A stretch of 23,146 nt of DNA from a virus: positions 1 to 23,146 of the IMG/VR virus record IMGVR_UViG_3300025941_000099; one strand, 5' to 3'. Positions 2,544 through 19,960 of the stretch are shown here, one piece after another. The translations under genes and the position numbers were made by a program. Numbering within the stretch: the first letter of the stretch is position 1; each line of letters starts with the position of its first letter. The notes beneath the pieces were generated by a model. That model was not told the origin of the DNA and made no database searches. It saw only the letters and a list, made by a program, of their open reading frames with translations.

Positions 2544-2547
2544 TTGT

Positions 2548-2988: not shown

Positions 2989-3054
2989 ATACGTGTGACC
3001 TTCGTAATCTGTCGTTGCAATCGCAGGGCGAAAAAGCAATTGCCAACTCGGGGC

Positions 3055-3096: not shown

Positions 3097-3104
3097 TTTG
3101 TTGA

Positions 3105-3359: not shown

Positions 3360-3389
3360 TCCAAGTACTCCAGTTGGGATTCCATCTGG

Positions 3390-4363: not shown

Positions 4364-4863
4364 AGAGAATCCTATGTCTCGTTGTTTTCGTCCTTGCACT
4401 CTCGGCAGTGATCTCAGCCCAGCAAGTTGCAGTCATTACTGAGAAAGCAAATCTTCGCGGTACACCTAACAGTAGCGGAAAGGTTGTTACTGAGGTTTCG
4501 CAGGGGCAGCTTTTTGACCTGATAAAACAGGTAGGAGGTTGGTTTTTGGTTCAGACGCCCGATTATGTGGGATGGCTTCACGGCAGCACCATCAAGCTAG
4601 TCGGAGCCGAGCAGACCATCAATGCGGCCGTCGAGCCGCCAGCTGCGCCCGCTTACACTCCGCCTCCTGCTCCGGCCTACCAGGCCCCGGTTCCAACTCC
4701 AGCTCCTATTCGTGACCCGATATACCCGAAACCCGCGACGGTTTACACACCGTCAACTACTGCGACCCGATCGGGCGGATATATTCGCGGTCCTCGGGGT
4801 GGTTGTTACTACTACAGCGCCAGCGGCCGGAAGGTGTACGTCGATCGGAGCCTGTGTAATTAG
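4360..4863 (+). CDS. Secreted SH3b-domain protein with C-terminal GPRGGCYYY motif
   Basis: This is a 167-aa protein. A signal peptide occupies residues 1-20 (cleavage near ISA-QQ). A bacterial SH3 domain lies at about 22-80 (ITEKANLRGTPNSSGKVV, then GGWFLVQ and GWLHGS). A Pro/Ala/Tyr-rich linker at 92-132 leads to the tail GPRGGCYYYSASGRKVYVDRSLC (positions 144-166). That tail is one I associate with secreted proteins of acidobacteria. The start overlaps the metalloprotease stop (ATGA) with GAGGTG upstream, so it is in the lysogeny operon. It probably acts at the cell wall or outer surface of the lysogen as a conversion gene; the ligand is unknown. Confidence 0.75.
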   Translation: MKRILCLVVFVLALSAVISAQQVAVITEKANLRGTPNSSGKVVTEVSQGQLFDLIKQVGGWFLVQTPDYVGWLHGSTIKLVGAEQTINAAVEPPAAPAYTPPPAPAYQAPVPTPAPIRDPIYPKPATVYTPSTTATRSGGYIRGPRGGCYYYSASGRKVYVDRSLCN

Positions 4864-4869
4864 CGAGTT

Positions 4870-5490
4870 ATGAAAGGCATTTTGTTTTTTATAATTTTGG
4901 CGGCTTCAGTCGCTTGTTTTGGCCAGGGCGATCGTGACCTGCGAATAATGAACACAGACCTTGCGTCAGAGAAGGTGTGTGGATCTCCCGAATGGGCCGT
5001 TAAGGAGAAGATGTCGGCGACGGTCGCCAAGCGAAGCTTTGCAGACGACGAACTGACACTTACGGGCGTCGTTCTGAAAAACGATCAGGATCAGCGGATG
5101 TTCATTAACGTTGATACCGAATTTCTAAAGGACACCGTCTTAATGGGTGACCTTGCAGACTACCTGATAGTTGGGAAGAAGATCGACGCGACTCTGATTC
5201 GTTGCAGCCACATTTATTATCTCGCTAAGTTAAGTCCGGCTCCGGATGTTAAAAATAGAATTGCAGGACTTACCCTGGCTAGATTCAACGCGCTGAAGAA
5301 AGGCATGACCTACGACGAGGTGATCGCAATACTGGGCAAACCAGGTGAACTCACCAGCACGGCGGAAAACGCCGCTCACAAGACGCAGATGTATATCTGG
5401 AAAGTTCCGAAAAGCCCGATCGGGGCAAATATGAATGCCCTGTTTACGGACGGGAAATTGGTGAGTAAGGCCCAGGCGGGCTTGAAATGA
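4870..5490 (+). CDS. Secreted protein with DUF3862 / SmpA-like C-terminal domain
   Basis: This is a 206-aa protein with a signal peptide (residues 1-19, MKGILFFIILAASVACFGQ). The central part, about 60-125, is a small beta domain (LTLTGVVLKNDQDQRMFINV ... KKIDATLIRC). The C-terminal 75 residues (LARFNALKKGMTYDEVIAILG ... MYIWKVP ... MNALFTDGKLVSKAQAGLK) match the DUF3862 pattern, a relative of the BamE/SmpA fold. It starts 6 nt after the SH3b gene, so the two are probably co-expressed as envelope proteins of the lysogen. A Cys at 16 (SVACFG) lies in the signal region, so lipoprotein anchoring is possible but the lipobox is imperfect. Confidence 0.7.
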   Translation: MKGILFFIILAASVACFGQGDRDLRIMNTDLASEKVCGSPEWAVKEKMSATVAKRSFADDELTLTGVVLKNDQDQRMFINVDTEFLKDTVLMGDLADYLIVGKKIDATLIRCSHIYYLAKLSPAPDVKNRIAGLTLARFNALKKGMTYDEVIAILGKPGELTSTAENAAHKTQMYIWKVPKSPIGANMNALFTDGKLVSKAQAGLK

Positions 5491-5649
5491 CAAAAAGAAC
5501 TACGTTTTTGCGACATTGAAACCCGTTTCGGGCATCCAAATTGCATTAGAAAAATTCGCTGTTCTGATTTGACTATGGAGCGTATGATAAATAAGGATAT
5601 GTCGGACCTCACCAAATTCATGGCAGCCCCTTACGTATGCGGAGGCCTT

Positions 5650-5844
5650 ATGACGAAAGACGAAGTCAATCGTGTACCGGAACGCGAATCCGACGAATCT
5701 CGCGAGATCGAGGCGAGGCTTAAGAGAATCCGTGAACGTTATGACGGTGATTTTGGAGCCTTCTTTCGAGATGCTCAGCAGTCTGTTAGAAAGCAATATC
5801 AACCTGATGAGGAGTGTGCAATCGACGGTTTAGCCCGCACGTGA
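5650..5844 (+). CDS. Small charged protein next to the ClpP-like gene
   Basis: This is a 64-aa, highly charged helical protein (MTKDEVNRVPERESDESREIEARLKRIRERYDGDF, broken here at residue 35). The start at 5650 is chosen for its GGAGG 4 nt upstream; a longer form from 5575 or 5570 is possible. It ends in GTGA, coupled to the ClpP-like gene. The family is unknown. A role as adaptor, inhibitor or substrate of the protease is suggested only by the coupling. Confidence 0.55.
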   Translation: MTKDEVNRVPERESDESREIEARLKRIRERYDGDFGAFFRDAQQSVRKQYQPDEECAIDGLART

Positions 5845-7007
5845 TTGTTCCCGATCCTAAATATCGCCCAGATTTTGGCCGTTCCATTTATGTCGATGGT
5901 ACGATCGACGCTTCGATGGTGTCTCGGCTGACTCCTCAAATAATTAAATTACAGCAAGAATCCCGCGAGCCGATTACTGTGGTTATCAACAGTAACGGCG
6001 GGTCAGTCGCATCCCTGGTAACCTTAAAACATCTGTTGAAAGCTCCATCTCAGGATCTGGGAGAGGGGTGTCGACTGATCACCGTAGTGCCGACTTTTGC
6101 CGCAAGTGCTGCCGCAGATTTGTTGTCAGCTGGCGATTATGCAGTGGCCTATCCAAAGAGTAACGTGCTATATCACGGAACGCGACTCAGCGACAGTGAA
6201 CTCACCGCCGAGCGCTCATCATATTTAGCACAGTTGCTCCGCCTTACCTTAGAAGGCACTGCAATGGATCTTGCTCGCGACGTGGGCTTTCGCTTTTTCT
6301 TCAGATTCATCGCTTCACGGTCCCAGTTTTCGAACATCAGGGCTTCACTTAAAAAGCCGGCACTGAACGATCTTAGCTGTTTTCTCGAATACATTCGCCC
6401 AAAACTGTCGAGAACAGCCAGCGAAATCCTCACGATAGCCGAAGGACGTTATAATCGGTATGCTGAGGTTCTCGACTTCGTCAGTAAGAAGCTGAGGCGC
6501 ATCAAGACGAGTAAAACGGAACTAGAGCTGGACGGTATTCGGCTAAAGGCGATCGTCGATTTTGAAATCAAAGAGAACAGCTCGGCTCCCGGTTGGTCCT
6601 TACAGTTTCAAGGAGTGCACAAGGTAACGGAAGATTTTCTCTTATATCACGAATACCGAAATGTTACTTCAAGTCGCCGCTTTAAGGGCTGGTGCTTAGC
6701 TTATGGTCGGTTCCTTGTGAGCGACGATGAGGCAAACCAATTGGATTCAATTATCGATCATGATGAGAAGGTAGAAAAATGGACCGAGCGCGTTCGGGAT
6801 GATATTCAACCTATTTGGTCTTTCTTTGTGGCCCTATGCTTTACCTTGCAGCGGGGGGAAAACGATGCCTTCACGGCTCAGGATGCCTACTGGCTTGGAC
6901 TGATTGATGAGGTCTTAGGCGAAGAAGAGTGTCCACCCGTCCGCCTAATATATGAAAATAAACCTGATCCGCCTGCAGCGCTTCCGGCCGCGGGAAGTGA
7001 GAGTTAA
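5841..7007 (+). CDS. ClpP/SppA-like serine protease with large internal insertion
   Basis: This is a 388-aa protein if it starts at GTG 5841, which overlaps the upstream stop as GTGA; GTG 5814 adds nine residues. It aligns by eye with ClpP in two separated parts. N-terminal: a strand IYVDGTID, the oxyanion loop INSNGGSV, the nucleophile elbow FAAS89AAADLLSAGD, and VLYH112GTR. C-terminal: GEND342AFTAQDAYWLGLIDEV. The Ser-His-Asp triad is therefore complete. However, His and Asp are 230 residues apart, against 49 in E. coli ClpP, because of a mainly helical insertion of about 180 residues. It has no signal peptide, so it is cytoplasmic. Its place in the lysogeny region, not beside the capsid genes, argues against a head-maturation protease. 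Confidence 0.7.
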   Translation: MIVPDPKYRPDFGRSIYVDGTIDASMVSRLTPQIIKLQQESREPITVVINSNGGSVASLVTLKHLLKAPSQDLGEGCRLITVVPTFAASAAADLLSAGDYAVAYPKSNVLYHGTRLSDSELTAERSSYLAQLLRLTLEGTAMDLARDVGFRFFFRFIASRSQFSNIRASLKKPALNDLSCFLEYIRPKLSRTASEILTIAEGRYNRYAEVLDFVSKKLRRIKTSKTELELDGIRLKAIVDFEIKENSSAPGWSLQFQGVHKVTEDFLLYHEYRNVTSSRRFKGWCLAYGRFLVSDDEANQLDSIIDHDEKVEKWTERVRDDIQPIWSFFVALCFTLQRGENDAFTAQDAYWLGLIDEVLGEEECPPVRLIYENKPDPPAALPAAGSES

Positions 7008-7660: not shown

Positions 7661-8125
7661 ATGGCGAAGCTAACGCAGGCGGAAGTAAGGGCAAAGGCCG
7701 ATGAGTACGCGGCCCTGAGCAAAAAGATCGAGAAGTCCGAAGCGGCACGCGACGCGGAGATGCAGCCGTTCGTTGAAAAGCATCAGCGAGCGATCAAGGG
7801 AATCGTCGATCATCACGAGCCGCGGATCCAGAAGATGCGTGATCAGCGAGACGCTCTTCAGACTGAGGTTTTAGGGTGGTTGAACGGGGTGGGAAAACCT
7901 CTGGTCCTTGAAGGTGAGAACGCGACCGCCGTCGTCGAATCGAAGCCGGGCAGCCGAGTGATCGACGTCCAGAAGTTTTTGAAAAAGGCGAAGGACAAAG
8001 GGTCCGCGATGTGGGAATGCCTGAGCGTTGCCGTTGCTAAAGCCGAGAAGCTGCTCGGCGAAAAAACGATCAGTGAGATCTCGAGGAAAGATTCGAAGCT
8101 GGTTGCGAGCTTGAAACTGAAATGA
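7661..8125 (+). CDS. Mu Gam-like host-nuclease inhibitor (tentative)
   Basis: This is a 154-aa protein. A long N-terminal helical region, about residues 5-70, runs from AEVRAKADEYAALSKKIEKSE to MRDQRDALQTEVLGWL. A beta unit (KPLVLEGENATAVVESKPGSRVIDV) follows, then a helical end (EKLLGEKTISEISRKDSKLVASLKL). This order, coiled coil then 'GWL' then a small beta-alpha unit, is that of Mu Gam, a dimer related to Ku that protects DNA ends from RecBCD. Mu gam is early, whereas here the gene leads the lysis block, which is unusual. The stop overlaps the lysin start (ATGA). The alternative is a generic coiled-coil phage protein. Confidence 0.5.
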   Translation: MAKLTQAEVRAKADEYAALSKKIEKSEAARDAEMQPFVEKHQRAIKGIVDHHEPRIQKMRDQRDALQTEVLGWLNGVGKPLVLEGENATAVVESKPGSRVIDVQKFLKKAKDKGSAMWECLSVAVAKAEKLLGEKTISEISRKDSKLVASLKLK

Positions 8126-9213
8126 GTTTTTCGGAGCGAGACAAACTGAAAGCACTTGCGATCGTGCATGTCTTCGAAACGTCGAAACCCTTCGGGGATT
8201 ATTCGGCCCTCGCCGTGCTTAATGACGGTGCTGGGATCTCGTACGGCATCAACCAGTTTACGCACAAGTCAGGGAGCCTCGAGCTCGTGCTGAATGAGTT
8301 CGTCCTGCTCGGCGGTGAGCTGCCGCAGGTCCTGAAAACTGTCCTACCTGACATCCAGAATCCGAGGTCCTCAAACATACTTCTGCTGTCGAAAAACTCG
8401 GCGGTCAAGGCGGCGCTCAAAAAGCTCGGCGGAGATCCGCTGATGCGGCAGGCACAGAACGAAGTTGCGTTTGATCATTTTCTCAGGCCGGCGATCACTG
8501 CGTGTGACGGCTCCGCCTTCAAGGATCCGCTCAGCCTGGCGGTGATCTACGACTCGATCAACCACGGCTCGTGGGAAAAGGTCCGCGACCGCGTGTCTGC
8601 CGGCGGTGGTGAAAGAGGATGGATCGAGCGTTATGTACGAACTCGAGATGCGTGGCTAAACTCGGTGCCGCGGCTTAGATCTACACGATATCGAACCCAG
8701 TTCTTCCTGAATGAGATCCGGCACGGCAACTGGGAGCTTAAGCTGCCGCTTTACGTTCACGGCTGCGAGCTGACAGAGGACATCTTTCCGCCAATGACAA
8801 GCCCGGCGGTTGAGCAGTCAATAGTGATCATGCCCGTAACTACCGCAGAAGCCCCAGAGTCGGCCGCTACTTCTTCTCCCGCCAGTCAGGCCCAAACGCC
8901 GGGCACGTCGGAATCGGTTCTTGGTGCCATCACAAGGGCCGGACAGTTTGTCGAGGCCGCAGGCAAACCGATCGATGCGGCCGCACAGGTGACGGCCTCG
9001 GTCACGCAACGCAAAGACAGCGTCAAGTCGATGTGGACAGCTCTGCTGCATTCCGTTTGGCAGGTGATCTGGGCGGTGCTCGGATTTTTTATCGGCCTGC
9101 CAAAAGAGGTTTGGTTCGTCGTTGCAATTATCGTCGCGGCCTTCGGACTGTATTACCTTTACCGGCAAATCACATTGGGTAAGATCCGCGAACAGGCGGC
9201 ACTTCAAAAATGA
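8122..9213 (+). CDS. GH46 chitosanase-like endolysin with C-terminal membrane anchor
   Basis: This is a 363-aa protein. Residues 8-45 (LKALAIVHVFE19TSKPFGDYSALAVLND35GAGISYG) match the catalytic entry of GH46 chitosanases: FE, a Tyr-containing turn, then DGxGIxxG, with Glu and Asp as acid and base. The downstream helices (AVIYDSINHGSW ... RGWIERYVRTRDAWL) also fit GH46 or lysozyme-like folds. A Pro/Ala/Thr-rich linker, about 235-290, leads to two hydrophobic helices (313-327 and 332-352), so the enzyme is tethered to the inner membrane. Position ahead of holin- and spanin-like genes makes it the probable peptidoglycan lysin. There is no N-terminal signal. Confidence 0.7.
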   Translation: MSFSERDKLKALAIVHVFETSKPFGDYSALAVLNDGAGISYGINQFTHKSGSLELVLNEFVLLGGELPQVLKTVLPDIQNPRSSNILLLSKNSAVKAALKKLGGDPLMRQAQNEVAFDHFLRPAITACDGSAFKDPLSLAVIYDSINHGSWEKVRDRVSAGGGERGWIERYVRTRDAWLNSVPRLRSTRYRTQFFLNEIRHGNWELKLPLYVHGCELTEDIFPPMTSPAVEQSIVIMPVTTAEAPESAATSSPASQAQTPGTSESVLGAITRAGQFVEAAGKPIDAAAQVTASVTQRKDSVKSMWTALLHSVWQVIWAVLGFFIGLPKEVWFVVAIIVAAFGLYYLYRQITLGKIREQAALQK

Positions 9214-9416
9214 CAATGCAGGATTCAAAGAACGGCCTTCTGGCCATATTCAGCGGAATACCCGCATATATCGCGGCGGTCGATGCTCAGACGATAACGA
9301 TAATTTCGGCGATCGTGCTGCCGGTCTTTTTCTTCTGCGTGGGAAAGGCGGTAGATGTCGCCGTGCAGATCTACTTGAGGCGTCGCAGAGCGGACAAAGA
9401 TCATGACGATCAATGA
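9210..9416 (+). CDS. Holin-like small membrane protein
   Basis: This is a 68-aa protein with one long hydrophobic segment (ITIISAIVLPVFFFCVGKAVDVAV, broken at residue 51) and a basic/charged tail RRRRADKDHDDQ. The short first hydrophobic patch (LLAIFSGIPAYIAAV) could make a second span. The start overlaps the lysin stop as ATGA, and its end overlaps the next gene. Size, topology and cassette position fit a holin or antiholin. Sequence alone cannot prove pore formation. Confidence 0.6.
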   Translation: MTMQDSKNGLLAIFSGIPAYIAAVDAQTITIISAIVLPVFFFCVGKAVDVAVQIYLRRRRADKDHDDQ

Positions 9417-9837
9417 GGGCATAAAAGATCTGTTCACGGATCTCACGTCAAAGCAAATTATCACGGTGATCGCGATCGCCGTCTTCATCGTTTGCGTCGC
9501 GATCTCGGCCGGATCGGCGTTGTCGTTTTTAAGAATTCGCGCACTCGAAAAAGATGTCGCCGCTGCCAAAGAGCGAGCGGACGCCTTTGAAACAAAGGCG
9601 GACCAAAAAGAGAAAGAAGCGGCGAAGTACCAGGAGAAGATCACGTATCTCGAATCAAACCTGGTCGAAATCCAAAACCTAGCGAGGAAACAAGACGATG
9701 AAATTACCAGGCTTAATTTTACTGTCGCTGGCTCTCGTACTGATGTTGACCGTGCCCGTAGCGTTCGGTCAATCGCCAGCACCGCCGACGAGCTCTGTGA
9801 TCGCCTCAAAGAAACAGGCCACCCGTGCGACCCCTAG
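9403..9837 (+). CDS. Rz-like inner-membrane spanin
   Basis: This is a 144-aa protein. An N-terminal membrane helix (residues 19-44, IITVIAIAVFIVCVAISAGSAL) is followed by a long coiled coil, about 48-105 (ALEKDVAAAKERADAFETKADQKEKEAAKYQEKI). It ends with RSIASTADELCDRLKETGHPC. Membrane helix plus periplasmic coiled coil is the layout of i-spanins such as lambda Rz. Its last 140 nt overlap the next gene out of frame, as in Rz/Rz1 pairs. Confidence 0.65.
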   Translation: MTINEGIKDLFTDLTSKQIITVIAIAVFIVCVAISAGSALSFLRIRALEKDVAAAKERADAFETKADQKEKEAAKYQEKITYLESNLVEIQNLARKQDDEITRLNFTVAGSRTDVDRARSVRSIASTADELCDRLKETGHPCDP

Positions 9838-10192
9838 CCCGACACCGGAGATCCAAAAGATCATCGACGCGTGCGCGGCGACGGCAGACGATCTGAAAGC
9901 GACAAGGACCTACGCGTCGAATCTCGAATCCGAGAACAAGCTGCTTAGCGAGAGGCTCGAAACGGAGAAGAAAACTACGGCGATCCTGACGGAGCTGAAT
10001 AAAACCCGGGAGGCAGAGAACGCTGCTTTAAGGGATACGGTCATGGCGAAAAACGAGACCATCGCGGCCAAAGATGCCGTGATCACAGCCCAGGACAAGC
10101 TTGTCGCGAAACTACAGAAAAACAAGAGCTCACCCTGGCAGAGAGCCGCCGACGTCCTTCTCGGCGTCGGCTTGTTTGCACTCCTTAGGTAG
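9698..10192 (+). CDS. Secreted coiled-coil protein, overlapping spanin partner
   Basis: This is a 164-aa protein. A signal peptide (residues 1-24, MKLPGLILLSLALVLMLTVPVAFG) is followed by a Pro/Ser/Thr linker (SPAPPTSSVIASKKQATRATPSPTP). A long coiled coil, about 55-145, and a C-terminal hydrophobic stretch (VLLGVGLFALL) complete it. The start has AGGA 9 nt upstream inside the Rz-like gene, and 140 nt are shared in another frame. The signal plus Pro-rich region recalls Rz1. There is no lipobox Cys after the signal, and the protein is much larger than Rz1. An outer-membrane or periplasmic spanin partner is likely but atypical. Confidence 0.6.
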   Translation: MKLPGLILLSLALVLMLTVPVAFGQSPAPPTSSVIASKKQATRATPSPTPEIQKIIDACAATADDLKATRTYASNLESENKLLSERLETEKKTTAILTELNKTREAENAALRDTVMAKNETIAAKDAVITAQDKLVAKLQKNKSSPWQRAADVLLGVGLFALLR

Positions 10193-10745
10193 GCGTCTTA
10201 TCTAGGATTTCTCTTCGGTGAACGGAAGTTAGCTTTCGGGCTTCTAATGCTATTTTCATAAAATGGCCTGTTACGTCTGATACTTTGAATTCCTGACTGA
10301 ATTTCATCATTGGAAACGTTCTTCCCATGTTCACTAAAAGAGCGTCGTGTTCATGAATGTTGTCATCGAGGCGGATTTGAATTCGAGAATAGGTAACCAT
10401 GAGATCGTTTATAAGGCGATTCATTAACTCGAATTCCGGATCCGTAACTTTCCCTTTGTTTCGGTGAACAACTTGGCGAACATCCGCCAATTGCTGGCCA
10501 ATAGAAAGAAAGGAACTTAAATCAAGCGTGATGGATTCAAGCCATTCTTTTCTAACCGTTAGCCTGGCGTTGGACTTCGCAAGGCTTTCCGCCGATCGAA
10601 TCTGATTTCTGGCGATTCGGGAAGCAACAATCGGACCGACGACTGTAGCGATAAGTGCGACGAGTGCTGAAATGATCGCGGTGATTGTTTGCCAGCTTAG
10701 ACCACCGTCATCGCCGACAGAAATAGTGACGCGAGGATCGAACAT
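10185..10745 (-). CDS. Membrane protein moron of unknown function
   Basis: This is a 186-aa protein with one membrane helix (residues 19-45, TITAIISALVALIATVVGPIVAS) and a helical cytoplasmic part containing no motif I recognise. The start has AGGAGG 8 nt upstream. It is transcribed against the surrounding late genes from its own promoter (10772-10800), has more AT than its neighbours, and overlaps the spanin gene's end by 8 nt. These are moron traits. A superinfection-exclusion or other lysogen-protective role is plausible by position and topology only. Confidence 0.65.
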   Translation of the reverse strand: MFDPRVTISVGDDGGLSWQTITAIISALVALIATVVGPIVASRIARNQIRSAESLAKSNARLTVRKEWLESITLDLSSFLSIGQQLADVRQVVHRNKGKVTDPEFELMNRLINDLMVTYSRIQIRLDDNIHEHDALLVNMGRTFPMMKFSQEFKVSDVTGHFMKIALEARKLTSVHRREILDKTPT

Positions 10746-10771
10746 GTGTGGGGCCTCCTAAGATACTGCAA

Positions 10772-10800
10772 AAAGTAGAGGAACCCGTTGATTTTGTCAA
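10772..10800 (-). promoter_or_regulatory. Leftward promoter of the membrane moron
   Basis: On the minus strand TTGACA (10800-10795), a 17-bp spacer and TACTTT (10777-10772) predict a start near 10765. Box sequences and spacing are the same as in the early promoter at 3401-3429. A TTGAT-TTT-GTCAA dyad (10788-10800) overlaps the -35 box. Confidence 0.55.
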
Positions 10801-10814
10801 AGACCTAGACTCTC

Positions 10815-11384
10815 ATGTCACAAACATCGACCAGGACAAACCCCGAGACGATCAAAGACGCTTTCGCTTTGTATTTGAAATACAACGGCGAGCGTTTTGA
10901 TCTGATCGAGGAAGAGATGCACCGGCTCGGCTGGGAAGGGTTTCGGAAGCAGATCCTGTTTAGCCGCGGAAAGGGTGAGAACTATCGTGACGGATGGATC
11001 GATCGCTTTGGCTGGAAGAATGCTCTCAAGGTCCATCTCGCCCAGGCCGCGACGATCGCGGCGACGTCGGCCGAATCTCTCCTGGCTGAAAACGAGTCGA
11101 TCAGAAAGGCCGCGTACATGGAGATCCAGGAGCAAGGCGTGCGAGCGAACAAGGATCTCGTCTACCAGCACAATCTCTATACCCAGAACTGCATCAAGAT
11201 CCTCGACAAGCTCGCCGAGGCCCGCGACAACTACGCGAACTTCACATTTTTCCTAAATCACCTGCTTCGAGCCGCGACGCAGATCTCGCCGGCGTTAGCG
11301 AAAGAGCTGTGCGATGCCGAGGAGCCGTTGATCGAATGGGCGGAAAAGGAATTCGTGACCGAGGATGAAAAGCCTGAAGAGTAA
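10815..11384 (+). CDS. Candidate small terminase subunit
   Basis: This is a 189-aa helical protein. Residues 9-60 (PETIKDAFALYLKYNGERFDLIEEEMHRLGWEGFRKQIL) form a possible helix-turn-helix. The rest is helical with an acidic C-terminal tail (EWAEKEFVTEDEKPEE). It opens the packaging block, one gene before TerL, the normal place for TerS, and the size fits. I see no ribosome site before the ATG. I do not recognise a specific TerS family, so the call rests on position and shape. Confidence 0.5.
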   Translation: MSQTSTRTNPETIKDAFALYLKYNGERFDLIEEEMHRLGWEGFRKQILFSRGKGENYRDGWIDRFGWKNALKVHLAQAATIAATSAESLLAENESIRKAAYMEIQEQGVRANKDLVYQHNLYTQNCIKILDKLAEARDNYANFTFFLNHLLRAATQISPALAKELCDAEEPLIEWAEKEFVTEDEKPEE

Positions 11385-11387
11385 GCC

Positions 11388-12473
11388 ATGCGGACCGTAA
11401 ACATTAAGTTGAAGGAGCAGGAGGCAGGTATACGCAAGGTGCGTTTCCTGCCCGATGTGACGCCCGGCGACGATGATCTGATCCTTAACGAGTATTACTC
11501 GGTCATGACCGATGCCAACGGTCTCGCCAGCATCGATCTGCCGACAAAAGCGACGGGAACTGTTCGGTACAAGTGCGAGATCCCTAATCAGATCGGCGGA
11601 GACAACGCAGGTTCTTTTTATTTGGCAGCCGGCGGGGCGGTCGATCTCGAGGACCTGCTTGCGACCGGCGTTCCGGCAACAGAGACCGTGAAGGCTGCGA
11701 TCGATGACGCGATCGCGAATGCTGCCAGCGGCGGAGCGGTGTTTCAAGGCCTATACCCAAATGCGACGTTCCCTGCGGCATCCACGCTCAACTCAGCGAA
11801 TGGGCACAACGATCTCTACACCGTTCCGGCCGGCAGAAAAGCTCTGGTCATTGATTACATAAAGACCAACTCGACGGGTGGAGCGATCAATAGCTTCCCA
11901 GAGATAAAGATCGGCTCGACCTATTATCAGCTGGGGAACAGCCTCAGCGAAGTGTCGGGAGGTATCGGTCACAATTACGGAATGACTTCCGGTAACTTTT
12001 CCCAGTCCATCGTCCTGAACGCAGGCGAGAAGTTTTCGGTAAATTGCGACGCGCCAGGCCTGAGTGTCTGGGTGAATATCATCGAGTTTGACGCGGCCAG
12101 CCCATTGGGCAGGGCTGACATTCAAACATGGGTCAATGGTGCGAATACGCTGTTTACGGTACCTGTAGGAAAGACTGTGTCTTTTGGAGCGACTACGCTT
12201 CAAGCTAATTCCAATAATCCCGGCACGATCATAACCTCTTACGTTTACCGTAATACCAGCGGTTCCAGCCGCACCATCAGCACTGTCAATATCGTCCCAT
12301 CAGGTGGGAGCCCGGCTGCGAATAATCAATTCGTCGGAAGCAATGTGATCTTTAACGGCCAGGGATTCAACAAATATTTCCACGGGAACATGAGACCCGG
12401 AGATTTTATCAACGTTAACAGCGACTCAAACGCCGCCGGACAGTACGCGTGGATCAACTACGTACTGAGGTGA
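11388..12473 (+). CDS. Beta-rich structural protein with two related C-terminal domains
   Basis: This is a 361-aa protein. Residues 1-95 form a beta-type N-domain (VNIKLKEQEAGIRKVRFLPDV). A linker at 96-125 is followed by two similar beta-sandwich-like domains: LYTVPAGRK at 143 to WVNIIEF at 228, and LFTVPVGKT at 255 to WINYVLR at 361. Gly/Asn/Ser-rich loops suggest a virion surface protein such as a head fibre or receptor binder. It lies between the TerS candidate and TerL, only 3 nt and 1 nt from them, an odd place for a structural gene. No enzymatic motif is seen. Confidence 0.6.
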   Translation: MRTVNIKLKEQEAGIRKVRFLPDVTPGDDDLILNEYYSVMTDANGLASIDLPTKATGTVRYKCEIPNQIGGDNAGSFYLAAGGAVDLEDLLATGVPATETVKAAIDDAIANAASGGAVFQGLYPNATFPAASTLNSANGHNDLYTVPAGRKALVIDYIKTNSTGGAINSFPEIKIGSTYYQLGNSLSEVSGGIGHNYGMTSGNFSQSIVLNAGEKFSVNCDAPGLSVWVNIIEFDAASPLGRADIQTWVNGANTLFTVPVGKTVSFGATTLQANSNNPGTIITSYVYRNTSGSSRTISTVNIVPSGGSPAANNQFVGSNVIFNGQGFNKYFHGNMRPGDFINVNSDSNAAGQYAWINYVLR

Positions 12474-12474
12474 T

Positions 12475-13878
12475 ATGGCTCAGGCAACAAAATACGATCA
12501 TCGCAAAAAGATCAAGTCCGACATGGACCGGGCACGCCGGCAGCTCGGGCTTAATCAGCTTGTGTTTCCCGATTGGCTGCCGAGAGTAACGCCGCAGTGG
12601 CAATGGGACTGGCCGCACCAGATCTATCTCTACAACGCTCTGCAGCGGGTGACTGACGGGCTTTGCAAACGGCTGATGATCTTCCTGCCGCCGCGGCATT
12701 CGAAATCGGAAACGGTCACCGTTCGTTATGCTGCCTGGCGGCTTGAAAACGATCCGAAAGCCAACATCATCCTCGGGTGCTATAACCAGAAACTCGCGAA
12801 CCGCTTTTCACGAAAGACCTACCGCATCGCAAAAAACCGCGTCGCGATGGCCAAGGACCGGAAGGCGGTCGAGGAATGGGAAACCGCGATCGGCGGAGGG
12901 CTGCGTGCCGTCGGCGTTGGCGGTGGTATCACCGGGTTCGGCGGAGATCTGATCCTGATCGACGACCCCGTCAAGAACCGCGAGGAGGCCGAATCGGAAG
13001 TTTATCGCGATAAATGCTGGGACTGGTTCAATGACGATCTTTACACGCGTCTCGAACCGAACGGAGCGATGGTCCTAACGATGACTCGGTGGCACGATGA
13101 CGATCTTGCCGGGCGGCTGCTGAAGGAGGTCGAAGACGGAGGCGAGAAATGGGAGGTTGTAAAGCTGCCGGCGATCGCCGAGCCGGACGATCCGTTAAAC
13201 CGTCGTGAGGGCGAGGCTCTGTGCCCGGCACGTTACGACATTGACGCACTGGAAGCCCGAAAGAAAAAGCTCGGGCCGTATTCGTTCGCAGCTCTCTATC
13301 AGCAGCGTCCGGTCCCGATCGAGGGATCGCTATTCAAACGCGAGTGGTTTGAAAAGAACTTCGTTGAGCGAGCTCCTGACGGACTGCGTTGGTGCCGCGG
13401 ATACGATCTGGCGGTCTCGCAAAAGACCTCAGCCGATTACACAGCGAGCTTTCGATGTGCGTTCGACAAGGAAGGAAATCTCTTCATCGCCGATGGCTTT
13501 CGTAAACGGATCGAGTATCCCGAGCAAAAGCGTTATGTCGTCGGCCGGATGACCAACGAACAGAAAACCGAGCACGGCGTTGAAAAGGCTCTACATGGCG
13601 AGGCTCTTGTTCAGGACCTTCGTCGTGTGCAATCGATCCGTGGCGTGCCGCTGAAGGCGATCAAGGTCGATGTCGATAAATTTACGCGGGCCCTGGGCTG
13701 GGCGAACCTCGCCGAGGAACGAAAGGTTTACCTGGTCCGCGGCGGATGGAACGCCGATTTTATCGACGAGGTATGCAGGTTCACGGGAAAGGGCGACGCT
13801 CATGATGACCAGGTCGATGCGGTCAGTGTGGCGGTCGGAATGTTGTCGAAGAGACGAGCGAAGCTGCACGCATTCTGA
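12475..13878 (+). CDS. terL: Terminase large subunit (ATPase/nuclease)
   Basis: This is a 467-aa protein. The ATPase has a Walker A variant LPPRHSKSE (residues 71-79), where the usual Gly before Lys is Ser, and a Walker B DLILIDDP (158-165). A coupling-motif-like TMTRWHDDD (202-210) follows. The nuclease domain shows GYD311LAVSQKTSADYTAS and GDAHDDQVDAVSVAVG (440-454), the acidic residues expected of an RNase-H-like fold. It packages DNA into proheads through the portal encoded next. The ribosome site GAGGTGAT lies right at the start. Length and motif order are standard for this family. Confidence 0.95.
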   Translation: MAQATKYDHRKKIKSDMDRARRQLGLNQLVFPDWLPRVTPQWQWDWPHQIYLYNALQRVTDGLCKRLMIFLPPRHSKSETVTVRYAAWRLENDPKANIILGCYNQKLANRFSRKTYRIAKNRVAMAKDRKAVEEWETAIGGGLRAVGVGGGITGFGGDLILIDDPVKNREEAESEVYRDKCWDWFNDDLYTRLEPNGAMVLTMTRWHDDDLAGRLLKEVEDGGEKWEVVKLPAIAEPDDPLNRREGEALCPARYDIDALEARKKKLGPYSFAALYQQRPVPIEGSLFKREWFEKNFVERAPDGLRWCRGYDLAVSQKTSADYTASFRCAFDKEGNLFIADGFRKRIEYPEQKRYVVGRMTNEQKTEHGVEKALHGEALVQDLRRVQSIRGVPLKAIKVDVDKFTRALGWANLAEERKVYLVRGGWNADFIDEVCRFTGKGDAHDDQVDAVSVAVGMLSKRRAKLHAF

Positions 13879-13932
13879 TGCTCGCCCTGTGTTGATCAAA
13901 AACATCGGCACGCCCAACGAGCCGCGTAGGTG

Positions 13933-13952
13933 ATTTGGAACAATTTGGAACA
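13933..13952. repeat. Tandem 10-bp repeat between terL and portal
   Basis: ATTTGGAACA occurs twice in direct succession in the 112-bp gap between terL and the portal gene. It could be a cos/pac or regulator site, or a chance slippage product; nothing else marks it. Confidence 0.5.
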
Positions 13953-13990
13953 CCGTTCTGCGACGGGGCGGCACTATTTAATTCGAAACC

Positions 13991-15394
13991 ATGAGCGATC
14001 TAACAAAGGCGGTCAAGGCACTCAAAGACAATTCCTGGTGCTATCAAAAACCGGAAGACTATTACGACGGGAAGCACAAGCTGTCGTTTGCCACGGAAAA
14101 ATTCAAGAATGCGTTCGGAGAGCTCTTTCGGGCGTTCGCGTTGAACGTGTGTCCCGCCGTGGTCGACGCGGTAGCAGATAAGCTGGTCGTTGAAAACTTT
14201 GGAGTGGACGAGGGTGACGCGAAGTCTGCCGAAGATGCCTGGTCGATCTGGCAGGCGAACCGGATGGGGCAGAGATCAGGCCAGGTACATAAGGAAGTAT
14301 TGCGTGCCGGAGATGCCTATGTGATCGTCTGGCCTGACGTCACTTCGGGCAAAGCGACGATCTATCCGAACAGGGCTGCGACCTGCACGGTCTTTTACGA
14401 TGAGGAGACGCCTGGCAAGATCCTCTGGGCCGCGAAATACTGGACGCATCTCGACGGCCGTGTGCGGCTGAATCTTTATTACGCAAATCAGATCGAAAAA
14501 TACATTGCGAAGAAGGCGGCACTTGACGACCTCTACACTCAGAAAAAAGAGCAGACGATCGAGAACCGGAACCGATACTCCGTGTTGCCCGAGGCTAAGG
14601 AGTTTCTTCCATACACCGAGGACGGACCGGAAACGATCAAGAACCCGTACGGCGTCGTGCCGGTCTTTCATTTTGCAAACAATGCCGACGTGGGGTCCTT
14701 TGGCATGTCAGAGCTAAAGCACGTCGTGCCGGTGCAGGACGCTTTGAATAAATCGGTCCTCGACATGCTGGTCGCGATGGAGTTTGCGTCGTACCGGCAG
14801 CGATGGGCTTCGGGTATCGAGATCGAGATCGATGAGACCACTGGCAAGCCAATCCCGCCGTTTACCGCCGGGGTCGAACGGCTATGGGTAACCGAGAGCC
14901 CGGAAGCGAAATTCGGAGATTTTGAGGCGACGGACCTGGAGCAATTCCTAAAGGTGAAGGACGGCATGCGTATAGACATCGCGACGGTGTCGGGCACGCC
15001 GCTGCATTATTTTCTGCTGACCGGGGCCGCCTTTCCGCAATCCGGTATATCGATCGAAAAACTAGAGTCGCGTTTTCTCAACAAAGTAAGGGACCGGATG
15101 GAAGCATTTGGCAATGTATGGGAGGACGTAATGCGATTCGCACTGCGCATCGAGAACAAGGGCAAAGACGCCCAGCTCCACACGAACTGGGCGAACCCGG
15201 CACCGCTTTCCCAAGGCGAGCAGCTCGACAATCTGCTCAAGAAAGAGCAGATGGGAGTTTCGGAAGAGCAGCTTTGGAAAGAAGCCGGATATGGCGAGAA
15301 GGACATCAAGACGATGCAGGAGGCAAATGCTGCGAAAGCCGAGGAAGAGGCGAAAAGGTTCAACGCCGGTGACCTGGGAAACAACCTTCCGTAA
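13991..15394 (+). CDS. Portal protein, SPP1 gp6 family
   Basis: This is a 467-aa protein with the order typical of SPP1 gp6-type portals. An N-terminal helical part (ALNVCPAVVDAVADKLVVENFGV, broken at residue 72) comes first. A beta wing follows (VLRAGDAYVIVWPDVTSG, ATCTVFYDEETPGKILWAAKYW), then the stem/crown segment GVVPVFHFANN ... GMSELKHVVPVQDALNKSVLDMLV. A C-terminal helical part (FPQSGISIEKLESRFLNKV) is last. It forms the dodecameric DNA gate at one vertex and docks TerL. The MuF gene follows after 3 nt, as usual for this portal type. There is no ribosome site upstream of its ATG. Confidence 0.9.
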   Translation: MSDLTKAVKALKDNSWCYQKPEDYYDGKHKLSFATEKFKNAFGELFRAFALNVCPAVVDAVADKLVVENFGVDEGDAKSAEDAWSIWQANRMGQRSGQVHKEVLRAGDAYVIVWPDVTSGKATIYPNRAATCTVFYDEETPGKILWAAKYWTHLDGRVRLNLYYANQIEKYIAKKAALDDLYTQKKEQTIENRNRYSVLPEAKEFLPYTEDGPETIKNPYGVVPVFHFANNADVGSFGMSELKHVVPVQDALNKSVLDMLVAMEFASYRQRWASGIEIEIDETTGKPIPPFTAGVERLWVTESPEAKFGDFEATDLEQFLKVKDGMRIDIATVSGTPLHYFLLTGAAFPQSGISIEKLESRFLNKVRDRMEAFGNVWEDVMRFALRIENKGKDAQLHTNWANPAPLSQGEQLDNLLKKEQMGVSEEQLWKEAGYGEKDIKTMQEANAAKAEEEAKRFNAGDLGNNLP

Positions 15395-15397
15395 TGA

Positions 15398-17059
15398 ATG
15401 TCAGTTCTCGACAACACCCTCAAGAAGCACCGCAAGCGGATTATCGATCGCGAAGAGCACGCTTTCCGCGAGATGCTGCAGGCATATAAAAACGTCGAGC
15501 GTGAACTCAAGCGATCGATCGCCGAGCTGCAGAAGAAAGTCAGTGATGCAAAGGCAGCCGGCCAAGAGATCTCACCCGCGTGGCTTCAGCAACAGGATCG
15601 TCTCAAAACTCTTGTAACCCAAGTCAAAAATCAAATAACCCGCTTCGGCGGCACTGCCTCGCGAATTACCGCCCGTGAGCAGCGGGCCGCGATCGGCATT
15701 GCGATCGACCAGACGAAGGATATGATCTCGGCGATCGCTGGAGATCCTTTCGCCGCAGGTTCGCTGCTCAACCCGACCGCGGTCGAAAATGCCGTGGGTA
15801 TGATGGGCGACGGCTCGCCGATCCTCGATTATTACGAAAAGAATCTTGCTCCTAAAGTCGCCCAGATGATCCGCCAGGAAGTGATCAAGGCCGCCGCTCT
15901 CGGCACCGATTTCAGAATGATCTCCAACCGCCTGCTGCAAACGGGACAGATCACCCGAACGCGAGCTCTCGCGACTGCCCGCACTGAAGTCAATCGTGTT
16001 CGCCGCGAGACGACACGGCAGATGTACCAGGCGAACTCGGATGTGATCACGGGCTGGGAATGGGTCGCGAGCAAATCGGCAAGGACCTGCCCGGCGTGTC
16101 TCGCTCTTGACGGCCGCGTCTTTGATCTCGACGAAGTTTTCCCTCAGCACGTTAATTGCCGCTGCACGATGATCCCGGTGATCGACGGGATCCAGCGGCC
16201 GCCGCGACAACTCGGATCGGATTGGTTCGATCAGCAGTCCGACGAGATCAAAGAGACGATCATCGGCAAGGATGGCGTGGCGGCGTATAACGAAGGGCTG
16301 GTCGGCCTTAAGGACTTTGTTGGCTGGCGAAACGACAAACGATTCGGAAAATCGGTCTATACGAAACCGCTGAGTCAGGTCCTGCTCGAAAAACCGATCG
16401 GCGAAAAGATCATCAGGACGCCGAAGAATGTTCATGTCGATTTCGAATTTGGAGCGGAAGAGGTCCTGCAGGATCTGCTGGCCAGGGATCTCAGCCACAA
16501 TGAAATCGGCGGCCTGGTAGGTGCTCTCGACGGAGCGAAGATCTCCGTTGACCACAATGATGAAGGCGGACTATTCCTCCACGTAAATCATCCGCTCATT
16601 AGCCAACAGGTCCGGAGCCTCGATCGGGATTTCAGAGGTCGCGTTTTCATGCATAACGAGATCTTCCGGGCATCGCGTACTGCACCGAAGGGTACAGGTC
16701 TCAAATCTTTCGCGACACAGGTCCTTCATGCGGGGAAATTCGGCGTCGAATATATCGATACAGACGCCGTCGGCAATTACAAGACTAGTAAGGATGCGGC
16801 TCGCTGGAATGGTTATTACACCTGGGCGAGATTTGGCTACAACGCTCAACTCGGTCCGAATGATTGGGCGATATTTCCGGAGACTTTCAAGGGTATCCAG
16901 GATCTCAACGAGCTGATGCTGCAAACTAACGGCAAATTCGTCTGGCTTTATAAGGGTACTGGCAGGCCGATGCTGTTCGATTTGGACCGGTCAAGCCGCA
17001 GCCGGAGGATCCTCGAAAAATATTTACAGGAAAAGAACTTTGCTGTAGACTTCGAGTAA
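15398..17059 (+). CDS. MuF/SPP1 gp7 head morphogenesis protein fused to a GNAT-like C-terminal domain
   Basis: This is a 553-aa protein. The N-terminal 150 residues are helical. The MuF core, about 185-265, holds RALATARTEVNRVRRETTR and the metal site C231PAC234 ... H251VNC254RC256. Classic MuF proteins end soon after this. Here about 210 further residues follow, including HNEIFRASRTAPKGTGLKS (positions 419-437), QVLHAGKFGVEYIDTDAVGN, and NGYYTWARFGYNA (471-483). A glycine loop, then a long helix, then an NGYxxWxxxGF-type motif is what I expect of GNAT-fold or related effector domains. MuF proteins can carry polymorphic toxin tails delivered with the virion. The small acidic gene downstream could be its immunity gene. 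Confidence 0.75.
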   Translation: MSVLDNTLKKHRKRIIDREEHAFREMLQAYKNVERELKRSIAELQKKVSDAKAAGQEISPAWLQQQDRLKTLVTQVKNQITRFGGTASRITAREQRAAIGIAIDQTKDMISAIAGDPFAAGSLLNPTAVENAVGMMGDGSPILDYYEKNLAPKVAQMIRQEVIKAAALGTDFRMISNRLLQTGQITRTRALATARTEVNRVRRETTRQMYQANSDVITGWEWVASKSARTCPACLALDGRVFDLDEVFPQHVNCRCTMIPVIDGIQRPPRQLGSDWFDQQSDEIKETIIGKDGVAAYNEGLVGLKDFVGWRNDKRFGKSVYTKPLSQVLLEKPIGEKIIRTPKNVHVDFEFGAEEVLQDLLARDLSHNEIGGLVGALDGAKISVDHNDEGGLFLHVNHPLISQQVRSLDRDFRGRVFMHNEIFRASRTAPKGTGLKSFATQVLHAGKFGVEYIDTDAVGNYKTSKDAARWNGYYTWARFGYNAQLGPNDWAIFPETFKGIQDLNELMLQTNGKFVWLYKGTGRPMLFDLDRSSRSRRILEKYLQEKNFAVDFE

Positions 17060-17061
17060 TT

Positions 17062-17253
17062 ATGGGAATTCCTCTGAGCGATTACGACGAGATCTTAAAT
17101 CGTCCCAGCCGTAAAGCCGGCGGCGATGATGGCCCCGTGTTGATGCGGTCAGACGAGGCTGCCCTGGACAAAGCCTGGTCCGTCGTAGCGGAGGAGGATG
17201 GCGTCGATCAGTTGCCTGATCAGCCGAGTCGCGAAGAGATCAGGAATTCCTAA
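17062..17253 (+). CDS. Small acidic protein downstream of the MuF fusion (candidate immunity or chaperone)
   Basis: This is a 63-aa acidic protein (IPLSDYDEILNRPSRKAGG, then LDKAWSVVAEEDGVDQLPDQ), starting 2 nt after the MuF stop and ending before a strong terminator. No family is recognised. Its coupling, size and charge fit an immunity or chaperone partner of the MuF C-terminal domain. An unrelated small head protein is the alternative. Confidence 0.5.
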   Translation: MGIPLSDYDEILNRPSRKAGGDDGPVLMRSDEAALDKAWSVVAEEDGVDQLPDQPSREEIRNS

Positions 17254-17268: not shown

Positions 17269-17310
17269 ACGAAAAAAGAGAGTCAAAAACGGCTCTCTTT
17301 TTCGTTTTTT
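17269..17310 (+). terminator. Rho-independent terminator of the packaging/head block
   Basis: The stem ACGAAAAAAGAGAG / CTCTCTTTTTCGT (one bulged A) closes a 10-nt loop and ends in TTTTTT. It stops rightward transcription before the leftward moron operon. Confidence 0.85.
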
Positions 17311-17375: not shown

Positions 17376-18590
17376 CTAATGCACTAGGAAGACATCCCAA
17401 GCCCAACGGCCAATCTGAGCACCGTGAACGTCCTTTACCTTTGCCCGGTAGCGGAATTGGTTGCCATATCGATCGACTCGTTTCGATTCCTTATAATCAA
17501 GGTCGATCGACGCGAGCCCCAGTTCCGACAGGGCATGCAATTCGTCGGGTTCGGAGACCCCGTTATGATTGACATCCCTCCATAGACGCAGAGAGCTAAA
17601 AACCGAATCCTGAATCGAAATCTTACCGTCGCCATTGCCGCCATTGGCTGGCTTATCAAACTCTGCAAGAGCCCGAAAGCCGTTTTGCTTTTCCCCTTGA
17701 GCAAGCGGTGGTTGAGGAGTTGTATCTCCGAACAACTCGCTTCCGTCGTCGATGAAGTTGTTACCGTTTCTGTCGACAGCCAGCCAAGCATCGTCAGAAT
17801 CAGACGTAGTCCAGCCGACCTGTACTGGCAAACCACTACCATTGATATCAAACGTAACGCCATTGGCAAGATTAGTGAGATCGAAACCATTTCCAGAAAC
17901 GTCGATCAAAATCGGGGAGCTGTTCGGTTCGCAATCACATAGATCCAAGTCCCAATGATAGCCGGCATCACAAAACCCCATATCGCATGGTGGTGGAGTC
18001 GGCGTCGGGTATCCATCGGGGCATGAACAACTATCCCAGTCGTAAAAAGTCGGCCCGTTACAAGAATCTTGTTCCGCCAACGATAAATCGCACCAGTTGT
18101 CAACGAGAGTTAGACCGGAGCTGCAGCCGGTGGTGGGATAGGTGGTGTAATCAGCAAAACCGCCGCATGCGCCAGCACTAGGCGTGGGAGTAGGAGAAGG
18201 TCGGCAAGTTTGGCAGTCAAAGCCTCCCACGTGCACGACCTGATTGCAATCCTCCCAACTCGACTCGACACCTGTTATTTCCTTTGTCCGAGGGTTCTTA
18301 TCGCAAATATAGCTGCAGTTCGTTTTTTGGCACGCATCGAGCGGATCATTATTAATGCAATATTCCTGTTGTGCTCCAGAATCTGTGCTGGGGAAACTAC
18401 ATTTATAGAATGTTGCATAGACCTGCTTCCCGTATACGGTAACATTGTTAGCACGCGCCCAATGTTGGTCCGTAACGGTGCAAGTTTTTCCGAATTTTTT
18501 GCAATCTTGAATCTGCGTGGGGCCGCTTTGGCCCGAAATCACCAAGAAACTGCCAAACACAAGGAAAAAATATGAGAGTATTTCTTTCAT
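17376..18590 (-). CDS. Secreted Cys-rich protein with C-terminal calcium-loop domain
   Basis: This is a 404-aa protein with a signal peptide (residues 1-20). Residues 30-221 hold 20 cysteines, some in pairs such as CSC and CDC, with Pro/Thr linkers (TPTPS, PTPTPPP). The C-terminal part from SPILIDVSGNGFDLT, about 225-404, is Cys-free. It contains Asp/Asn loops (DRNGNNFIDDGSELFG, DVNHNGVSEPDEL, NGGNGDGKIS) like dockerin or EF-hand calcium sites, and ends GRWAWDVFLV. I know this C-terminal unit from large secreted proteins of acidobacteria, so the gene looks host-derived. It is the last gene of a leftward operon that also encodes a thioredoxin-like protein, and its many cysteines may be that protein's substrate. 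Confidence 0.75.
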   Translation of the reverse strand: MKEILSYFFLVFGSFLVISGQSGPTQIQDCKKFGKTCTVTDQHWARANNVTVYGKQVYATFYKCSFPSTDSGAQQEYCINNDPLDACQKTNCSYICDKNPRTKEITGVESSWEDCNQVVHVGGFDCQTCRPSPTPTPSAGACGGFADYTTYPTTGCSSGLTLVDNWCDLSLAEQDSCNGPTFYDWDSCSCPDGYPTPTPPPCDMGFCDAGYHWDLDLCDCEPNSSPILIDVSGNGFDLTNLANGVTFDINGSGLPVQVGWTTSDSDDAWLAVDRNGNNFIDDGSELFGDTTPQPPLAQGEKQNGFRALAEFDKPANGGNGDGKISIQDSVFSSLRLWRDVNHNGVSEPDELHALSELGLASIDLDYKESKRVDRYGNQFRYRAKVKDVHGAQIGRWAWDVFLVH

Positions 18591-18628
18591 TTGCAGCCGT
18601 CTCCTCGGAAGAACTGCACGGGGCTGAC

Positions 18629-19381
18629 CTACTTCTCCAAAACCTTAGCTATGGCCGCCGTATCGCCCTTCTTGTATTTTTCTAAAAGAAACCTTCGGTA
18701 AGCGTTAGCACCAACACGGGCCCCACCCGATAAACCATCTAACTCAGTGGATTCTGCATCGTCTAAGCGTGCAAGAATTGCACTCACCGATCTTCCCTTA
18801 TTCCGAAACTCTCTCCGTAAAGCGTCTTTGAACTTTGCGGCTCCATCGCGAACTTCTGCTATCATGTCAGCCCCCGCCCCTTTACCAACAGTAGTACCGT
18901 CGGAGAATTCAATGTAAACAGGTTCCAGTTCAAGAGCCTTAATCTCAGAGTCTGGCTCAACCACAGGTCCTGGAGCCATAACATGTAGTTGGCCACCCGG
19001 AGCTATCGCTTTTTTAGTTTCGGCCAAATCTGGGTTTATGTACGTGTCTGCTACGTCCAGCCGAGCATCACGCTGCTCGGCACCGTCCTTTTCGCTGATA
19101 ACGGTATATCGCACGCTCGATGCACGAATGTCTTTGTCAGTTCCGTTGATCAGTAGACAATTAAATCTTTCTATAGTGTCAGCGTTGGCAAACACCGGAT
19201 CGCATTTGATTTCGATCGGAACAATCTCACCGCCTACCATCAGGGGTTTTACGACGACCGGAATCTGCCTTTGAATAGAGGCGTCTTTATCTTGAACCTC
19301 AGCGGTTGGGGCCAAAAAGATTAGACCTCCGCAAACTAGCAGTATTATGACTCCCGCGATAAGGGATGTTTGTATCCTCAT
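18629..19381 (-). CDS. Membrane-anchored or secreted protein of unknown function
   Basis: This is a 250-aa protein. An N-terminal hydrophobic helix (residues 8-27, IAGVIILLVCGGLIFLAPTA) acts as signal or anchor. The middle, about 45-165, is beta-rich (IPIEIKCDPVFANADTIERF is typical of the style) and may be an Ig-like or NPCBM-like domain. The C-terminal 80 residues are helical (DAESTELDGLSGGARVGANAYRRFLLEKYKKG). I do not recognise a family. It is the middle gene of the three-gene leftward operon, with about 35-nt gaps on both sides, and should be exported together with its partners. Confidence 0.65.
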   Translation of the reverse strand: MRIQTSLIAGVIILLVCGGLIFLAPTAEVQDKDASIQRQIPVVVKPLMVGGEIVPIEIKCDPVFANADTIERFNCLLINGTDKDIRASSVRYTVISEKDGAEQRDARLDVADTYINPDLAETKKAIAPGGQLHVMAPGPVVEPDSEIKALELEPVYIEFSDGTTVGKGAGADMIAEVRDGAAKFKDALRREFRNKGRSVSAILARLDDAESTELDGLSGGARVGANAYRRFLLEKYKKGDTAAIAKVLEK

Positions 19382-19414
19382 ACTCTCATAATCTCCATTC
19401 TGCCCTGATCAGGT

Positions 19415-19960
19415 TTACGATGTTACTCTGCGAATTACTTCGGCCTCCGTCTCCGGTGGCAGCTTTCCAACCCAGGAATCGATAATCTCCCCCTTATCGT
19501 CGACGAGGATCAGAGTCGGAGTGCCTTCAACTTGGATGCTATCCAAGGATGCAGTCTTAACATCCAAGCTGCTCAAACCAAGTTTATTTAAATGGTCCCT
19601 GCTTTCTTCAACGTTAGACGGGAGAACGGCGACCAATTTGACGTTCTTGCCTTCCGCGCTCGAGATCAGGCGTTTATAAAACGGTGCGCTTTCATTGCAA
19701 AAGTGACAACTGGTTTGAAGAGCCAGGATGAGCGTTTTAGATCGTTCCGACCAATTAACATCCAGGGGCACACTCTTAACATCCAAGGGCGCACGTTTTC
19801 TGGCTCCTCGGGTGATTTCTGGTTTGGTCGATTGGATAGCTTCTGGTGCGGTTGATGCTGCAAAAATGTACTTATGAATCAAGTATTCGCTAGCAAAAAC
19901 CGATAACACGATGACAGAAATGCTAATAAATAGTTCTGTCTTTTTTGGGAGCGACATCAT
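19415..19960 (-). CDS. Membrane-anchored thioredoxin-like protein (CHFC)
   Basis: This is a 181-aa protein. One N-terminal membrane helix (residues 10-33) carries a periplasmic thioredoxin-like domain. It has the redox site TSC85HFC88NES after strand KTLILALQ, a helix and strand VKLVAVLPS, and the cis-Pro loop EGTP148TLILVDDKGEIIDSWVG. This is the TlpA/ResA-like order. It would handle disulfides outside the cytoplasm. As first gene of the operon ending in a 20-Cys secreted protein, it is a likely folding helper. A short tandem repeat in its linker encodes LDVKSVPLDVNW. Confidence 0.8.
   Translation of the reverse strand: MMSLPKKTELFISISVIVLSVFASEYLIHKYIFAASTAPEAIQSTKPEITRGARKRAPLDVKSVPLDVNWSERSKTLILALQTSCHFCNESAPFYKRLISSAEGKNVKLVAVLPSNVEESRDHLNKLGLSSLDVKTASLDSIQVEGTPTLILVDDKGEIIDSWVGKLPPETEAEVIRRVTS
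19755..19796 (-). repeat. 21-bp tandem repeat inside the thioredoxin-like gene
   Basis: TTAACATCCA(G/A)GGGC(A/G)CAC occurs twice with a 21-bp period, encoding a repeated PLDV segment in the linker between membrane helix and redox domain. It looks like an in-frame slippage duplication. Confidence 0.6.

Follow-up and report, generated by a model that had tools for sequence, protein, structure and literature searches.

A divergent GNAT domain in the exchangeable tail of a phage MuF head protein, and its small acidic helix partner

The MuF minor head protein of an environmental phage carries, in a part of the protein that is exchanged between related phages, a C-terminal domain that is assigned by predicted fold and profile to the GNAT acyltransferases. 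The domain is accompanied by a small acidic gene that recurs beside it in other phages. We consider it rather probable that the locus is an effector cassette seated in an exchangeable MuF slot, in which a virion-borne GNAT would be combined with a GNAT-specific helix partner that restrains the effector in the cell producing the phage. The DNA analysed, called the window below, is the whole of the 23,146-base virus record IMGVR_UViG_3300025941_000099.

The MuF gene and its exchangeable tail

The gene in question (15398-17059, plus strand) encodes 553 amino acids, and its assignment to the MuF minor head proteins follows from the ORF call, profile matches and gene context. Directly 5' of it lie a terminase gene (Terminase_6, 12475-13878) and then a portal gene (SPP1_portal, 13991-15394). 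Residues 157-259 match Pfam Phage_Mu_F with an E-value of 2e-18 (67.5 bits, the curated cut-off being 29.6), and the product is matched further by NCBIfam phageSPP1_gp7 (E 1e-13) and by PHROG minor head proteins. The initial annotation had described a MuF core with the metal-binding residues C231, C234, H251, C254 and C256, and all five are invariant in an alignment of five core sequences. End-to-end alignment with relatives whose MuF protein ends there places the core at residues 1-330 (15398-16387). Its last part is a junction segment, LKDFVGWRNDKRFGKSVYTKPLSQVL (16307-16384), delimited by pairwise comparison with the core end and the orphan tail start of one relative, L003; tail-less MuF proteins end with this segment, and the separate tail ORF of L003 starts with it. 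The remainder of the protein, residues 331-553 (16388-17056), is the tail.

The comparison with a sister phage, L002, is the most direct. Its DNA is 100% identical to the window over positions 9398-16014 (6.6 kb) and diverges inside the MuF gene at codon 206, the first differing base being 16015. The L002 MuF protein stops at residue 329. Both the tail and the 63-codon acidic gene are absent, and 3' of the MuF gene there is a terminator-like sequence, then a minus-strand gene of the same kind as that in the window. As a sister phage with otherwise identical DNA for 6.6 kb does without it, the tail seems to be dispensable. We considered whether the pair could be an assembly chimera; each arrangement is found again in relatives further away, the one with the tail in L090 and the one without it in L091, L094 and L095. 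The conclusion on tail exchange is therefore independent of the window and L002 pair.

L090 (core 68%, tail 57%) has both the tail and an orthologue of the small gene. In L003 (core 45%, tail 47%) the tail is a separate ORF 3 kb downstream, preceded by a duplicate of the junction segment, FGKSxYxKxLxxIL. By analogy, this looks like an orphan effector cassette and recalls the orphan cassettes of polymorphic toxins. Between the tail-less MuF gene and the displaced tail ORF of L003 there are GIY-YIG and DUF559 nuclease genes (2228-5888).

Among the best 80 core relatives, 52 end no more than 60 residues past the core, 27 extend further and one is cut off by its contig end; sorting the extensions of 100 residues or more gives 12 tail groups. 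An ORF of 35-110 codons directly follows the MuF gene in 18 of 20 tail-bearing cases versus 14 of 46 without a tail (Fisher p 8e-6). We conclude that the tail occupies an exchangeable effector slot of the MuF protein. The idea of a tail swapped on a kept core, raised as a check from the window alone, is borne out by these relatives: the tail is not conserved with the core in all of them, and where the same tail is found in L090 the small gene is found too.

Some further observations concern the surroundings of the tail. Other tails on related MuF cores (L092, L100, L103, L122, L134, L124, L096 and L152) mostly have a small downstream ORF of their own; the motifs of the tails, assigned by eye only, are metallopeptidase-like (HExxH) in several groups, ADP-ribosyltransferase-like in one, papain-like and HNHP. 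In the window, three minus-strand genes (17376-19960) separate the MuF cassette from the scaffold gene. Their products are an Asp-rich EF-hand-like protein of 404 aa, a protein of 250 aa and a redoxin-like protein of 181 aa, and a homologue of the first comes after MuF in L002; they are likely to be added host-interaction genes. The window also encodes a ClpP-like protease with a long C-terminal part (5814-7007) and a GH46 (chitosanase-type) glycosidase with a hydrophobic C-terminus (8122-9213), which is probably a lysin. A CI-type repressor is present as well (Phage_CI_repr HTH, E 7e-10, with a weak IrrE-like peptidase match). No integrase was seen in the window, and the record may be a fragment. 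Judged by the CI-like repressor, the genome appears to be of the temperate type.

The GNAT domain

No family in Pfam, PHROGs or NCBIfam matches the tail itself, from about residue 331 to 553, and with its sequence alone as query nothing was found directly in viral contigs or phage records. Only one PDB sequence was hit by the window tail as sole query, Phi92 gp134 (E 0.0097); read residue by residue, the match showed no GNAT features and was set aside as due to chance.

The GNAT-like character that was guessed at in the initial annotation emerges from structure prediction and from the relatives. The AlphaFold2 model of the tail, computed with a 46-sequence alignment as input, has a pLDDT of 93.4 and a pTM of 0.90. 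Compared with solved structures by Foldseek, it matches almost exclusively GNATs or chains of Mtb ICL2, the C-terminal domain of which is GNAT-like. The TM-scores to solved GNATs are low (about 0.3), and the tail would therefore represent a divergent GNAT branch. A separate model of a relative, L072, again has chiefly GNATs among its structural matches. When the alignment profile was compared with PDB sequences, 15 of 17 matches were GNATs (best E 0.007). The Pfam families reached by any of the 46 members are GNAT families throughout, and one member, L015, lies above the curated Pfam cut-off (Acetyltransf_1). By predicted fold and profile, then, the tail is a divergent GNAT domain, that is, one of the acetyl-CoA-dependent acyltransferases.

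The extra residues after the core had been put at about 210, with two conspicuous segments; the tail measures 223 aa and both segments are in it. PKGTGLKS (residues 430-437, 16685-16708) aligns as the putative acetyl-CoA pyrophosphate loop, with GxG/A at 432-434. NGYYTWARFGY (residues 471-481, 16808-16840) aligns at the position of GNAT motif B (alpha4-beta6). As NGYYTWAR was the scan pattern used to find members, its invariance is largely an artefact of selection; members found by another route have VGYYVWPRFG (L074) and NGYYTWPRFGY (L090).

Could the tail be a catalytically dead, purely structural head domain? In the window loop GxG is present at 432-434 and the Q/R position of the Q/RxxGxG/A pattern is substituted, and the similarity to solved enzymes is low, as such a reading would have it. 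We nevertheless hold it to be very improbable. G432 is kept in 40 of 45 aligned members and G/A434 in 46 of 46, and a loop retained in nearly all members argues for activity, as far as conservation can tell. Loops of the canonical form occur in L010 (QSQGIG) and L015 (QGKGIG), and the tail is missing from near-identical and related phages.

Scans of viral and bacterial contigs gave about 50 loci with the GNAT-like domain. Its fusion partners are MuF proteins of several kinds, portal, portal plus MuF, a protein with ADP-ribosyltransferase plus 2H domains and an InPase polyvalent protein; elsewhere it forms a gene by itself. Searches of 50,697 phage records with a consensus and several tail sequences gave nothing significant (there was one match at E 0.4), and Burkholderiales plasmids gave weak matches.

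Several of these loci have peculiarities of their own. In L043 (3030-5390) and L024 (2886-6041), MuF proteins with the GNAT tail have intein/Hint-like insertions near the metal-binding motif. L076 (1199-4996, minus strand) encodes a single protein with three GNAT domains of this family, and its acidic-helix ORF is upstream, not downstream. In L014 (1-630) pieces of the GNAT domain come in permuted order, followed by an acidic-helix ORF; this locus was excluded from the tail alignment because of the permuted order, which is probably an assembly fault, the other option being a rearrangement. The unfused GNAT proteins of L030, L036, L038, L074 and L076 start with HPRDxxGxFAxxGG-like segments, and in L036 the product of the following gene opens with such a segment too; it is possibly a packaging or processing signal.

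The acidic gene and its helix

The second gene of the cassette (17062-17253, plus strand) starts exactly 2 nt after the MuF stop and encodes 63 amino acids with a net charge of -8, as had been described. It lies at the end of the head-gene operon: 20 nt 3' of it there is a terminator-like hairpin (17273-17302) with a 12-pair stem and then a T-rich run. It is short and its product belongs to no family in Pfam, PHROGs or NCBIfam, features that might suggest an ORF that is not a gene. We find that hardly credible given what the relatives show. L090 has an orthologue of 65 aa at the equivalent position; it shares 52% identity across the full 63 codons, free of internal gaps, and the alignment score was matched by none of 2000 shuffles. 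Third codon positions differ 38 times between the two genes, first positions 24 times and second positions 23 times, as in coding DNA. With a leave-one-out motif HMM the window protein scores 20.5 bits versus at most 10.7 in 5000 shuffles, and the linkage of the gene to the GNAT domain is specific.

The motif just referred to is an acidic amphipathic helix, VLMRSDEAALDKAWSVV (17137-17187; consensus LTxEDEAILDxxWxxI), defined by the motif HMM and by unbiased pattern scans. It ties the 63-aa protein to ORFs at other tail-bearing loci. The partner proteins have 42-65 aa, are acidic and are built around this one conserved helix, which begins with a T/S-x-E-D/E cap and has hydrophobic residues (I/L, A/I, W, I) along one face. 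Read from the sequence, this is the pattern of a protein-binding helix.

How specific is the link? A scan of 2.9 million viral contigs with the DNA pattern for [DE]DEAILDxxW returned seven contigs; in six of them the motif adjoins a GNAT domain, and the seventh encodes an unrelated protein. A looser helix pattern returned ten more contigs. The sole complete motif among these was in L079, a GNAT fusion, and the other nine, which lacked both the complete motif and the GNAT, encode unrelated proteins that serve as a control. In a ranking of every ORF at the loci by the motif model, the best matches from outside the training set (L011, L040, L015 and L057) were also directly 3' of the GNAT domain. 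The separate small ORFs of L003, L006 and L021 did not pass the leave-one-out motif test convincingly. The motif is absent at about half of the GNAT loci; at many of these, which for the most part involve other MuF types, another short ORF takes its place. Together with the L090 orthologue, these counts uphold the proposed link between the acidic gene and the tail, and by sequence criteria the 63-aa ORF is a real gene and a specific, recurrent partner of the GNAT tail. Short ORFs of another set also come after GNAT tails; they have PEIPIEEVD-like ends or IAYLSxxDxxxDFSKV-like segments (L043, L066, L049, L058 and L051; L053, L054, L060 and L041). These are perhaps other partner families.

The helix occurs in three gene forms. 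It can be a separate gene, as in the window, a C-terminal extension of the GNAT domain itself (L072, L033, L068, L057, L079 and L013), or an N-terminal part of the following gene's product (L015, L036 and L038). AlphaFold2 models the helix of L072, a natural fusion, with a pLDDT of about 90-95, after a weaker linker. These forms bear on what the partner might do. It may be a folding or packaging cofactor, with a helix that stabilises or completes the GNAT domain or that recruits a free GNAT to a virion protein bearing the helix. Fusion in cis and the confidently predicted helix of L072 would fit this, as would the helix that heads the following gene's product at loci with a GNAT separate from MuF. 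In the window and in L090, however, the GNAT is already within MuF and recruitment would be needless, and many GNAT domains manage without the helix. On balance we regard a cofactor role as possible, if rather less likely than not.

Alternatively, the acidic helix peptide could be a GNAT-specific immunity or auto-inhibition device that moves freely among the three gene forms. We put this forward tentatively, as a possibility. One would hardly expect an immunity protein to be joined in cis to its GNAT, and the fusions agree just as well with a regulatory or stabilising segment. A search for promoters near the 63-aa gene gave weak matches only, none of them convincing; with no convincing promoter of its own and a late-operon position, protection of a lysogen by the 63-aa protein is doubtful. 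In view of that position and of the cis fusions, control in the producer cell or a stabilising role is about as likely as classical immunity. If helix control does apply, it would be a new device among injected phage effectors.

Possible action and relation to known systems

The cassette we favour, effector plus restraining partner, might work as follows. The MuF core would build the tail into the phage head near the portal, and the GNAT tail would probably enter the next cell together with the DNA. There it might acylate a host molecule, either a protein (RNA polymerase or a ribosomal protein) or an aminoacyl-tRNA as in GNAT toxins. In the phage-making cell the acidic amphipathic helix of the 63-aa protein would most likely dock on the GNAT domain and keep it inactive, or neutralise it.

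The GNAT could instead be a takeover factor that serves phage growth, injected early and acylating the host transcription or translation machinery like Rac or T4 Alt. Portal is another fusion partner of the domain, and so are polyvalent proteins that bear ADP-ribosyltransferase, 2H and InPase domains; these have been interpreted as injected factors for takeover or counter-defence (PMC5512222, PMC7824862). We see this role as possible but doubtful: the window genome, with its CI-like repressor, is of the temperate type, the tails of MuF relatives resemble classical toxin domains by motif reading, and the tail-less but otherwise identical 6.6 kb of L002 make the tail look dispensable.

The closest known relatives of the arrangement are the MuF polymorphic toxins, where exchangeable tails and a small downstream ORF have already been described (Jamet 2017, PMC5576092). 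The conserved core, the exchangeable C-terminal tail, the small downstream ORF and the temperate-type phage are common to both. Such an ORF was reported for 89.4% of tail-bearing versus 25.5% of tail-less proteins (PMC5576092), and our 18 of 20 versus 14 of 46 are close to this. MuF toxins were reported to be restricted to temperate phages (PMC5576092), and the CI-type repressor of the window is in line with that. Apk2 MuF toxins are paired with IapK (PMC12226406). The window differs in its effector, as the main text of PMC5576092 has no acetyltransferase or GNAT, and in its partner, an acidic one-helix protein whose helix is elsewhere fused to the effector.

In polyvalent proteins (Iyer 2017, PMC5512222), GNATs are likewise part of virion-linked multidomain proteins and can have an ADP-ribosyltransferase neighbour, as here in L057. 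The GNAT section of PMC5512222, though, contains neither a MuF-GNAT fusion nor an acidic helix. The exemplar of polyvalent GNAT family 2, Mycobacterium phage Alice gp113, scored -1.5 bits with our profile, that is, no relationship. By this sequence comparison, which covers that exemplar and not family 1 (BAR32501.1), the tail family differs from the family of Alice gp113.

GNAT toxin-antitoxin pairs (TacT-TacA, AtaT-AtaR) also combine a GNAT with a small neighbour, and a structure of TacT3 with a C-terminal TacA3 peptide, as well as AtaTR, are among the weaker fold matches of the tail (Foldseek, E 0.02). Unlike those systems, the window has its GNAT in a virion protein and lacks a ribbon-helix-helix antitoxin: none was found, the 63-aa protein having no Pfam match and one conserved helix motif only. 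The Rac acetyltransferase of phiKMV-like phages (PMC7824862), compared through the literature only, is a phage GNAT acting on host machinery, which is what we propose for the window tail, but PMC7824862 describes neither a head-protein fusion nor an acidic partner. The pairing had at first been put down as one not known to be described. For a MuF tail with a small ORF this does not hold (PMC5576092); for a MuF-GNAT effector with an acidic-helix partner it stands, in that no description was found in the MuF-toxin and polyvalent-protein literature searched (PMC5576092, PMC12226406, PMC5512222).

Uncharacterised C-terminal extensions of MuF proteins are among the open questions of MuF-toxin research. 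One such extension now has a fold, a predicted chemistry, a specific small partner and natural fusions that are open to testing. Since the domain is essentially without match in cultured-phage records at the sensitivity used, the set of candidate injected phage effectors is widened, and the helix motif offers a searchable tag for finding further members. That the acidic gene travels with the enzyme across phages suggests an injected molecule that comes with its own controlling partner.
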